From IMG/VR virus record IMGVR_UViG_3300022074_004086, positions 1-27,512 of that record: 27,512 bases of DNA; one strand, given 5' to 3'. Of this stretch, positions 17,078-20,559 are shown piece by piece. The translations under genes were made by a program, and so were the position numbers. Source of the DNA: a virus. Each line of letters begins with the position of its first letter. Position 1 is the first letter of the stretch. The notes under the pieces were generated by a model that ran no database searches, was not told the DNA's origin, and was given only the letters and a program-made list of their open reading frames with translations.

Positions 17078-18961
17078 TTAAGTTCTTACTACTCCTTTGC
17101 CCATAGGATCAATAACTGTTTTTAAGTCAACCTTTTTAGTTGCCTTTGCCATCAATGCAGGATTCTGCGGTGATGGTACATATACAATTTTAGGTTTGCC
17201 AGGTATAGGAATTACGTTAGGAGTTCCTTCACCTCCACCTGTTCCTTGTGTTACTGGTTCATTATTTAACATTTGTTTTGAGACACCTGTGCCAGGTGCT
17301 GTAATAGAAGATCCACCTCCACCACCTTGTGCGGGAGAAGTAGAACCTGATGAGGGTGATCCTACTGGATCATCAAGATTAGGAATCCACTTATTTTTGC
17401 CAGGTTGTAACCATTTATCGTTAGGTTCGTTGTTATAGTAATCAAAGTGAACTGGATCTCCTTCACCCTGCCATTGGAAACCATACTTCTTACCATTGTC
17501 TCTCATCCACTGGTTTGCTTTTGAATAGTAGTCAATATCAATTGCCCAACCTTGACCATGTGGTGACTGTCCTACAGGTGCAGGATTTATGGCGTTTTCA
17601 TCGCCCGCTTCAGCTGCGTCTATTAATGCTTGTTGTTGTTCGGGACTTCTATATGATGATGTCACACTCATAGGTAAGTTGATACCATCTTTAGCAGCAG
17701 CATTTACTGCTTTTTCCCACGCTTTTTGAGTAGATGGGTTCAATATAATTGGTCTACTATACATGTCTTTAGTAGGATCAGGTGCTTCTACACCACTTTG
17801 TTGCTGTTCTGCTTCCTTTTGACCTGGCAATACGCCCATGTCTTTAGCAGCAAGTGTGGCATCTAAACCTACAGATATAGCAGTTCCAACGCCAGGTATT
17901 GTACCTGCAATACCAGATGCTGCTTCTAGCATTGCACCTTTAAGATCACCTGACATCAATCGTTGTCCTGCAAATAATAGTCCTGCACCTAGACCTACAA
18001 ATGGTATTTTCTTCAACAGTCCTTTACCTAGTGCCTTTGCACCTACCTTTGCTATTGCTTTACCACCTACCTTTGCAGCAACTTTCTTAGCACCTTTCTT
18101 TAATAATGCTGTTCCCGCTTTACTTGCACCCTTGACTAGTTTTGTACCAGACTTAGCAACCTTACTGGCACTCTTCATTCCTTTCTTACCAACAGCAAGA
18201 ACGTTTCTAATTTTTTTTCCTACTTTTGTTTTCTTTAGGAATTTTAATCTCTTACCTAGTTTAAGATTTTTAAGTTTGCTTAGTTTACTTAAAAAATTAA
18301 GTGGATTACCCGATCCTTTTGTTGGATCTTGTTGTGCTTTTTTCTCTTCTTTTGGCGACATTGCACCGCCACCTATCATTTTCTGTCCACCCCACCAATT
18401 TAGTGTTGATTTCAATCCAATTTTCTTAGCGGGTTTTGCTGTATCCGATATACCAAATATTGCTTTTAACTTCTGTGCCTCTGCCATGACACCACCTCTG
18501 GCAGGAGATGCGGGTAGTTGTTTTAAGAATCCTATAGAAGAACTAATAAGAACTGCTGCACCTTCTTTATAAATTTCGTTTACTGCTTCTCCATAATTCT
18601 TGACAGGAGTTACTATCTCAGGTTCCTTTTCGCCAACCTTTGCAATAGTTGGGCGTTTTACGAGACCACCCTCTGCTAATTCTACTTCTACTTTATATGG
18701 TAAATTCTTTTGCTGTGCTACTTTTGGTATTACCTTCTCTATAGTTTCTACTTCTATAGTTTCTTTTGTTTCTTTCTTCTTTATATCATCTGCTGCTTTA
18801 TATGTCTCTGTGCCACTCGCAAACTGATTGTTAGCATCACTAACGGGAACTGGTACAATAGCAGGTACGTAATTGCTTTGTGGACGAACAGCACCACTAA
18901 CCCCTGCAAACAATTCTTGCATAGAGTTTTTTAAAAAATTAGCGATTGCTCCTTCTTTCAT
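17078..18961 (-). CDS. Tape-measure-like tail protein with C-terminal M15 peptidase (VanY-type)
   Basis: 627 aa. Residues ~220-320 are basic repeats (KKGAKKVAAKVGGKAIAKVG). Residues ~320-375 are a Gly/Ala-rich hydrophobic segment (FVGLGAGLLFAGQRLM, then IAGTIPGVGTAISVGLDATL). Both are typical of tape-measure and hub proteins that cross the tail lumen. Residues ~405-510 form an M15 D,D- or L,D-type peptidase domain: SSYRSPEQQQAL, then SPHGQGWAID with zinc ligands His468 and Asp475, and DPVHFDY with Asp502 and His505. M15 enzymes cut peptidoglycan cross-link peptides. A Gly/Pro-rich tail follows. The gene starts in a TAATG overlap with the small frameshift ORF, right after the chaperone-like gp26, which is where a tape-measure gene is expected. 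T4 gp29 is 590 aa, a similar length. Peptidase: strong. Tape measure: inference. Confidence 0.8.
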   Translation of the reverse strand: MKEGAIANFLKNSMQELFAGVSGAVRPQSNYVPAIVPVPVSDANNQFASGTETYKAADDIKKKETKETIEVETIEKVIPKVAQQKNLPYKVEVELAEGGLVKRPTIAKVGEKEPEIVTPVKNYGEAVNEIYKEGAAVLISSSIGFLKQLPASPARGGVMAEAQKLKAIFGISDTAKPAKKIGLKSTLNWWGGQKMIGGGAMSPKEEKKAQQDPTKGSGNPLNFLSKLSKLKNLKLGKRLKFLKKTKVGKKIRNVLAVGKKGMKSASKVAKSGTKLVKGASKAGTALLKKGAKKVAAKVGGKAIAKVGAKALGKGLLKKIPFVGLGAGLLFAGQRLMSGDLKGAMLEAASGIAGTIPGVGTAISVGLDATLAAKDMGVLPGQKEAEQQQSGVEAPDPTKDMYSRPIILNPSTQKAWEKAVNAAAKDGINLPMSVTSSYRSPEQQQALIDAAEAGDENAINPAPVGQSPHGQGWAIDIDYYSKANQWMRDNGKKYGFQWQGEGDPVHFDYYNNEPNDKWLQPGKNKWIPNLDDPVGSPSSGSTSPAQGGGGGSSITAPGTGVSKQMLNNEPVTQGTGGGEGTPNVIPIPGKPKIVYVPSPQNPALMAKATKKVDLKTVIDPMGKGVVRT

Positions 18962-19122
18962 TAGCGTCGGTTTTCCTCAGCGATACGGTCTCGTTCCTTT
19001 TGTAGGTGTTGTGCAAGCATATTTACATATACCTCACGTTCCCAAGGCATCATATTTTCAATATCTGTCAAGCTATATTTATGGTGTTGTACCAGAGAAA
19101 AATTAGTTTGATAGAAGGTCAT
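18961..19122 (-). CDS. Small ORF / predicted -1 frameshift extension of the gp26-like protein
   Basis: 53 aa if started at the ATG 19122-19120. It begins MTFYQTNFSLVQHHKYSL and continues MMPWEREVYVNMLAQHL and a charged helix. A Pro-Trp-x-Glu-Arg-hydrophobic-helix pattern of this type is common in the T part of tail-assembly chaperones. The open frame extends back without a stop through R-I-A-L-F-H-E-G-I to the slippery heptamer at 19149-19155. A -1 shift would therefore append 62 residues to the 231st residue of the gp26-like protein, giving 293 aa. Independent initiation is also possible: GAGGG lies just before the ATG but inside a hairpin arm. Its stop shares TAATG with the M15/tape-measure gene. 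Confidence 0.75.
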   Translation of the reverse strand: MTFYQTNFSLVQHHKYSLTDIENMMPWEREVYVNMLAQHLQKERDRIAEENRR

Positions 19123-19125
19123 GAT

Positions 19126-19155
19126 GCCCTCGTGAAAGAGGGCTATACGAAAAAA
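19126..19155 (-). promoter_or_regulatory. Programmed -1 frameshift signal (T_TTT_TTC plus hairpin)
   Basis: On the minus strand the gp26-like frame reads GAT-TTT-TTC-GTA-TAG. T_TTT_TTC (19155-19149) is in the correct X_XXY_YYZ phase. Five bases later comes a perfect 6-bp GC-rich hairpin, GCCCTC (19143-19138), loop TTTCAC, GAGGGC (19131-19126). Shifting -1 leads to CGT-ATA-GCC and the small downstream ORF frame. All parts are read directly; use in vivo is inferred. Confidence 0.78.
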
Positions 19156-19841
19156 TCAGATAATCCTTCTAATACAACCTCGTTAACAACTTTAGTTTTA
19201 GGATTTTTTACCTTTAATACATGTCTAAGAGTTGGCATTGTCTCAAAAAACGATTGTATTTTTTCAAATTGATTGTTAGTTAGTCCCTCAACCCATGCCT
19301 TTGACTCATCGAGAGAGTCAGAAGTAAAGTCATCCTCACCAACATAAACTCTTTTGATGCATTTAGCCACAAGTTCGTATTCATCGACCTTTTCATCCAT
19401 AAAATTAATTTTAGCAAAATAATCTAAATCAGGGTATTGCATTTCAATAGTTAGATCATTATCTAACTTTATAATATTAGTGTGACCTTTTGGAAAATTG
19501 ACTTTGACATCATCTACCATAAATTTTACATCTACAGTTGTTTCTTTATCATCAGCACATGTGACTCTCATCTCAATCTCTTCACTAATTGATCTAGCAC
19601 GTATCTGCAGAAACAAATACTCAATGTCAAACAAAGCAAGAGTTGTCATATCTATCTTTGTAATAAGACATGCCTTTATAGTATTCGTGATAGCGTCTAA
19701 TATTTGCTCTTGATCCTCGTTTTCCATTGCCAAGATCAATAATTTCTGCTCTTTGACAATAAATGGTCTATACTTTACTCTCTTCTTTGTAGAAGGAATT
19801 GTCAACGTATAGGTTGGCGTTGCAATTTCAGGTAATGCCAT
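19143..19841 (-). CDS. gp26: gp26-like baseplate hub / tail-assembly chaperone protein
   Basis: 232 aa (T4 gp26 is 208). It follows the pattern of the T4 baseplate-hub gp26 family: a short beta N-terminus (PTYTLTIPSTKKRVKYRPFIVKEQK), then a helical part (LDAITNTIKACL, LFDIEYLFLQIRARS), then a beta region that in many relatives includes a Cys-containing insertion (RVTCADDKETTVDV), and helices at the end (LTNNQFEKIQSFFETMP). Proteins of this class resemble the G component of tail-assembly chaperones. The gene lies directly before the tape-measure candidate, and its last codons hold a slippery frameshift site, both fitting that role. The start ATG at 19841 is preceded by AT-rich sequence without a strong Shine-Dalgarno. 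In T4, gp26 is a hub-assembly component. Confidence 0.78.
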   Translation of the reverse strand: MALPEIATPTYTLTIPSTKKRVKYRPFIVKEQKLLILAMENEDQEQILDAITNTIKACLITKIDMTTLALFDIEYLFLQIRARSISEEIEMRVTCADDKETTVDVKFMVDDVKVNFPKGHTNIIKLDNDLTIEMQYPDLDYFAKINFMDEKVDEYELVAKCIKRVYVGEDDFTSDSLDESKAWVEGLTNNQFEKIQSFFETMPTLRHVLKVKNPKTKVVNEVVLEGLSDFFV

Positions 19842-19872: not shown

Positions 19873-20559
19873 TCACATAGAATGCATTAAGTGACTATAC
19901 TCATAGTAGAACCCCACTGTCACTTTAACAAGTTGAGCTGCTCCAGATGAGTATGGTATTGATGCTACAGTATATGGATATGCGTTTACGAGTCTCGCAT
20001 TCCATGGATTAAAGTAATCTTCTTTCTTTACATTTCCAGTTTCATCTCTTTGTTCAGGTGATGATCCTTTAAACTTCTCTAACTTGTTTATGAACATGTC
20101 ACATGCATAGTCTTCATAGTAGTTACATGCAAATGCTCTCTTATATGGTTGATCGTCATAGAAAAATTCAGGGTTAGCAGCGGATCCATTTTGTGTAAAA
20201 TCTTGCCATGCTCTAAAAAATTTTAATGGTAGTGATGTTCCATCCATAAAGAAACTTAAATCCAGTTCGTTGTATACTTTGGCAGTTGCCATTTTTTGTG
20301 TAATACCTTTATGAACTGACTTAACATCAAATGCAGAATAAGTTACGCCTGGCAACTGTATCTCATTACATAACAACTGTAGATTCAACTCATCACCATT
20401 ATCAGTCAACCTTAAGAAGTCCTGTCCAAGATTGTCCTCAAAGAATTTTGCTAACTTTGGTTTCTTAGCAAACGAGAATTGGTATAAATTAGATGCAGAA
20501 ATACCACCAGACTTTCCAATAGCCTGCATGAAATTCTGTACTCCTCTTGCGGATGCCAT
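19873..20559 (-). CDS. gp54: gp54-like baseplate tail-tube initiator
   Basis: 228 aa with the pattern of the T4 gp19/gp54 tail-tube fold: NLYQFSFAKKPKL near the N-terminus, ELNLQLLCNEIQLPG, a central ELDLSFFMDGTSLPLKFFRAW, and the end NAYPYTVASIPYSSG then LVKVTVGFYYEYSH. These match the tube-fold landmarks (first strand, LPG turn, P-x-x-I loop and final long strand). The tail tube itself (gp19) is usually next to the sheath gene and not in the hub cluster. Here the gene is beside gp26, gp48 and gp53 homologues, so gp54 (which starts tube polymerisation on the baseplate) is the better call. It is shorter than T4 gp54 (320 aa). Expression probably starts from the divergent late promoter just upstream. 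Confidence 0.72.
   Translation of the reverse strand: MASARGVQNFMQAIGKSGGISASNLYQFSFAKKPKLAKFFEDNLGQDFLRLTDNGDELNLQLLCNEIQLPGVTYSAFDVKSVHKGITQKMATAKVYNELDLSFFMDGTSLPLKFFRAWQDFTQNGSAANPEFFYDDQPYKRAFACNYYEDYACDMFINKLEKFKGSSPEQRDETGNVKKEDYFNPWNARLVNAYPYTVASIPYSSGAAQLVKVTVGFYYEYSHLMHSM

Follow-up and report, generated by a model that had tools for sequence, protein, structure and literature searches.

A predicted and conserved -1 frameshift signal joining gp26-like and gp51 tail proteins in cyanophages and other T4-like phages

The gp26-like locus

We analyzed a stretch of 27,512 nucleotides of viral DNA (IMG/VR record IMGVR_UViG_3300022074_004086, positions 1 to 27,512; hereafter "the window"), on the minus strand of which lie all the features described here. 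At 19143..19841, a gp26-like gene encodes in its 0-frame a 232-aa protein, the putative short form of a tail-assembly chaperone, which profile searches matched to PF12322 (T4_baseplate; E 9.7e-63) and to PHROG 150 (E 9e-71). Directly upstream (19873..20559) lies the gene of a tail tube protein (PF23849, E 3.9e-17; PHROG 45, E 8.9e-37) and, with an extension in the -1 frame at the end of the gp26-like gene, this arrangement agrees in part with the tail-chaperone-type layout recognized in an earlier, sequence-only reading of this DNA. That reading took the next gene (17078..18961) for a tape-measure candidate, a role that is putative: its 627-aa product carries a VanY (D-Ala-D-Ala carboxypeptidase) domain (PF02557) and is spanned fully by PHROG 23178, "peptidase," whereas the tape-measure family PHROG 16823 covers the VanY part only. 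Its gene follows the chaperone locus immediately, where a tape-measure gene is usually found.

The gp26-like gene ends tta tct gat ttt ttc gta tag, and its protein ...L-S-D-F-F-V. Within these last codons before the stop, and in the phase that the sequence-only reading had described, lies the slippery heptamer T_TTT_TTC (19149..19155), followed by a 5-nt spacer (gtata; 19148-19144) and the hairpin GCCCTC-TTTCAC-GAGGGC (19126..19143; MFE -12 kcal/mol, z -3.1 against dinucleotide shuffles), whose 3' arm contains the Shine-Dalgarno-like GAGGG of a small downstream ORF. This 53-aa ORF (18961..19122; PHROG 634, E 8.1e-25; PHROG 150 positions 243-281) is usually annotated as a separate gp51. A -1 shift at the heptamer runs, as had been claimed, into its open frame, reading FFRIALFHEGI-MTFYQ... 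and giving a fusion of 293 aa. The C-terminal part of that fusion is a 64-codon extension in the -1 frame (18964..19155; FFRIALFHEGIMTFYQ...), open up to its stop at 18961-18963, and the 53-aa ORF is most likely just the distal part of this extension. Structure prediction gives the extension four helices (mean pLDDT 81), the first of which would be lost with a start at the annotated gp51 ATG. A fold search with the extension gave no match, and its PDB profile matches to viral coiled coils were ascribed to coiled-coil composition and set aside.

The window's 8,648 codons hold six in-phase T_TTT_TTN heptamers, and the one at 19149-19155 is the only one near a gene end. Taken alone, this site is suggestive evidence for a frameshift rather than decisive evidence; the decision thus rests on relatives.

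Shift site, -1 frame and stem-loop in relatives

Viral contigs and named phage records supplied 373 loci, and the gp26 relatives among them were reduced at 90% identity to 190 representatives. Alignment of the junction across these relatives, as the sequence-only reading had proposed, recovered an in-phase T_TTT_TTN in 189 of the 190 (159 ending in C, 17 in T, 11 in A, and 2 in G), with the TTT codon 2-4 codons before the 0-frame stop in isolates and metagenomes and with the -1 frame open for 58-71 codons after the site in 189/189. Only Vibrio phage YC (Ackermannviridae) lacks the heptamer. All 189 have T immediately before TTT, though the codon there encodes S, N, D, or A, for which the background frequency of T-ending codons is 34-79%. 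Likewise, where the site encodes Phe-Phe it is written T_TTT in 176/176 cases, whereas Phe-Phe pairs elsewhere in these genes are so written in just 2/189, a contrast for part of which a fixed neighbor residue at the other pairs may account.

Downstream of the heptamer, the sequence evolves as protein in the -1 frame. Over the 48 nt after it, single-base codon differences are synonymous 81% of the time in the -1 frame as compared with 11-12% in the other two—counts taken over sequence pairs and hence not independent, though the contrast is large—and the differences concentrate at third positions. The same holds for the segment between heptamer and ATG in the window's clade (19123..19148; RIALFHEGI in the -1 frame): across 33 sequences (11 haplotypes), the one change upstream of the ATG that alters the -1 product is an I to L, and the variable codons (CGT/CGC/CGG, TTT/TTC, and CAC/CAT) are all synonymous.

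An excess of RNA structure occupies the same place. In the family, the mean MFE of the 45 nt after the heptamer is -10.4 kcal/mol vs. -5.0 for synonymous recoding (mean z -2.25), and the excess is local, with z of -0.63 at an offset of +15 nt and ~0 at +60, then slightly up again (-0.59) at +90. When codons were exchanged among sequences (within alignment column and amino acid), the mean was -7.24 +/- 0.14 vs. the observed -10.67, a control in which lineages are mixed and significance is somewhat inflated. The perfect 6-bp GC hairpin of the sequence-only reading, with its 5-nt spacing, does exist in the window, and its stems are invariant in 33 close relatives. As a family-wide signal, however, it was rejected, being confined to the P-HM1-like clade: a stem-loop in this position is general, but its sequence differs in other lineages. 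The registers of the stems vary, as does their sequence from lineage to lineage, which suggests that the structure was rebuilt more than once. Some family members fold only weakly, which, like the lack of a conserved stem-loop sequence, tells against frameshifting; stimulatory structures of this kind are, however, common rather than universal in frameshifting tail chaperones. From these comparisons, we predict with high confidence a conserved -1 programmed frameshift signal.

Gene copy number and the T4 proteins

T4 itself was not known to the sequence-only reading to use such a shift. T4 genes 26 and 51 stand in opposite orientation, for which reason a T4 frameshift between the two was rejected as impossible. 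Both T4 proteins match PF12322, and gp51 has in addition the PHROG 634 domain that forms the -1 extension here. A profile of the fusion aligns T4 gp51 and Klebsiella phage KpV477 gp51 across the shift point with no gap at that point (FFRIALFHEGIMTFYQTNFSLVQHHKYSL is from an example alignment of predicted fusions with gp51 across it). By homology, then, T4 gp51 is a natural fusion, the same protein as the predicted frameshift product. Whole-genome searches located PF12322 at two places each in T4 and KpV477 but at a single place in every one of 15 other genomes, including P-HM1; the T_TTT_TTN site is present in 13 of these 15. The T4 lineage does without the frameshift because it carries two paralogous genes.

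Two members of Straboviridae outside the T4 group, Aeromonas phage AS-zj and Vibrio phage V07, have the frameshift site and a single PF12322 gene, which places the switch to two genes probably inside Straboviridae. We consider it likely that T_TTT_TTN with a downstream stem-loop was the ancestral route to the long chaperone across the broader T4-like group (Kyanoviridae, Emdodecavirus, Schizotequatrovirus, Ceceduovirus, Menderavirus, Pootjesviridae, and Chakrabartyvirus) and that the lineage of T4 and its close relatives swapped it for gene duplication (26 and 51). In Ackermannviridae and relatives (loci L061, L058, and L374-L378), the -1 frame is likewise open and encodes a gp51-like extension; the site there is NTT_TTY rather than T_TTT_TTN (in CBA120, gag att ttc att taa), and the signal may be another one, at which a single tRNA slips. 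L061 and L058, both checked, have a single PF12322 gene, and CBA120 and Croc have no ATG at the gp51-like extension.

As for the chaperone role, it rests on T4 homology, a G/GT-like layout, and the literature. The gp26 model (pLDDT 85) matches viral baseplate hub and hub-assembly-chaperone proteins; against the PDB, the HK97 chaperone gp13 (2ob9) had the highest listed probability (0.38), but the similarity is not significant (E 2.0).

Predicted frameshifting, its alternatives and known systems

Together, the slippery heptamer, a -1 frame that is coding, the excess of structure, T4's natural fusion, and the complementarity of one-gene and two-gene genomes point to a frameshifted chaperone pair. 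We infer, with a probability of about 94%, that the gp26-like gene yields a short and a long tail-assembly chaperone by -1 frameshifting; the shift, its rate, and the chaperone role are all predicted from sequence. Most ribosomes would terminate at TAG, which yields the short form of 232 aa. In a minority, the stem-loop that begins 5 nt beyond T_TTT_TTC would cause a pause on the heptamer and a slip of one base backward, with the Phe tRNAs of the P- and A-sites re-pairing with TTT TTT; these ribosomes would read on into the 293-aa long form, whose helical C-terminal extension carries the gp51 annotation. If lambda G/GT is a guide, the tape measure would be coated by the short form in many copies and the long form in few, and tail-tube subunits would be recruited through the extension. 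T4 and its lineage encode the equivalent two proteins in the paralogous genes 26 (short) and 51 (long).

Databases annotate two genes, as would be expected if two separate proteins were made, i.e., if ribosomes stopped at the gp26 end and, being translationally coupled, re-started 20 nt further on at the ATG. In the window, GAGGG does precede this ATG by a few nt, inside the 3' arm of the hairpin, which could hide the start signal until opened, and an ATG with a Shine-Dalgarno-like sequence is found in 10 of the 189 representatives. Coupling would not, however, require T_TTT_TTN, nor does it agree with coding selection in the -1 frame before the ATG or with T4 gp51, which holds the equivalent segment inside one protein. 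Moreover, from the site up to the conserved xNF motif, 111/189 representatives have no ATG and 56/189 have no ATG, GTG, or TTG, so that a separate full gp51 could not start there in the usual way. We regard such a coupled re-start as very improbable. A combination of the two routes, with the fusion made in all lineages and free gp51 made by re-initiation as a third product in the P-HM1-like clade, is compatible with frameshifting, and the window's clade has kept the ATG with the Shine-Dalgarno-like GAGGG; some free gp51 could be made there as well. Yet the ATG is missing from most other lineages and free gp51 is a putative product, and we judge this combination rather unlikely.

Slippage need not be ribosomal, since every member has a run of six T on which RNA polymerase might slip to give the long form. 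Such a run is short for RNA polymerase slippage, though, and it is held in one codon phase with structure beginning just after it, a pattern that fits ribosomal shifting; polymerase slippage thus appears very improbable. That a homopolymer sequencing error had split one gene would be in keeping with a split falling at a homopolymer, but the T6 context and the 0-frame stop 2-4 codons after TTT recur in 189 representatives from isolates and metagenomes alike, and this conservation refutes the artefact.

Predicted frameshifting would also account for a previously reported peculiarity of cyanophages, in which gp51 is only ~20% of the length of other gp51 proteins and the cyanophage and vibriophage copies lack ~200 N-terminal residues (Sullivan et al., 2010; PMC3037559). 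If the ancestral reading is true, the T4 lineage switched from recoding to paralogy and the truncated look of cyanophage gp51 (PMC3037559) is explained. The predicted frameshift in any case corrects the annotation of a core tail gene. Few ocean viruses are as abundant as cyanomyoviruses, and their gp26/gp51 records, where examined, show either two genes or a missing gp51: a joined gp26-gp51 gene is annotated in none of the cyanophage records examined. In the Synechococcus phages ACG-2014j and S-WAM2 (records KJ019089 and KU686211), the gp51 region between gp26 and the next gene is unannotated and has no ATG. A protein family that comes both with and without the predicted shift allows a direct test of the ratio of short to long form and of how gene duplication took its place.

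Vladimirov, Gautam and Davidson (2022, Virology 566:9) reportedly identified the T4-like tail-assembly chaperones. As far as its title and citing papers tell, that study concerns the protein family of the gp26-like protein, whereas its title puts the weight, for T4-like phages, on a mechanism that is not frameshifting. As PRFect summarizes it, some T4-like phages do not frameshift but have one gene for the short form and another for the fused long form (Vladimirov et al., 2022, per PMC10885494), while the Adele paper attributes to it the finding of poly-T frameshift signals in the chaperone genes of T4-like phages (PMC12846349). Searches of openly available papers turned up no description of a cyanophage version of the gp26/gp51 frameshift; Vladimirov et al. 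(2022) may include the site, and we put the chance that it already describes it at about even. The claim of the sequence-only reading that gp26-like proteins are frameshifting chaperones is strengthened as to the shift signal (189/190), but not in its novelty, as the chaperone idea had been put forward for T4-like phages (Vladimirov et al., 2022).

As a type, the frameshifting chaperone is already known from lambda G/GT, and a -1 frameshift is conserved in the tail genes of dsDNA phages (Levin, 1993; Xu, Hendrix and Duda, 2004; summarized in PMC5009743). Compared by layout, the window's locus resembles lambda G/GT in that a small tail gene has, close to its 3' end, a (here predicted) -1 shift, in the tail tube gene upstream, and in short and long forms with a common N-terminus; it differs in T_TTT_TTN, PF12322, and a strong downstream stem-loop. 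The TAC locus of Pseudomonas phage Adele (Vandenendeviridae; PMC12846349) shares a conserved -1 frame, a poly-T slippery motif (GTTTTT), and a downstream part mis-annotated as a separate gene, whereas it belongs to other phage families and the passages considered describe no stem-loop. The T4 proteins are homologous, with gp26 corresponding to the short form and gp51 to the long form, but where T4 has two paralogous genes, the window's locus has one with a predicted frameshift.
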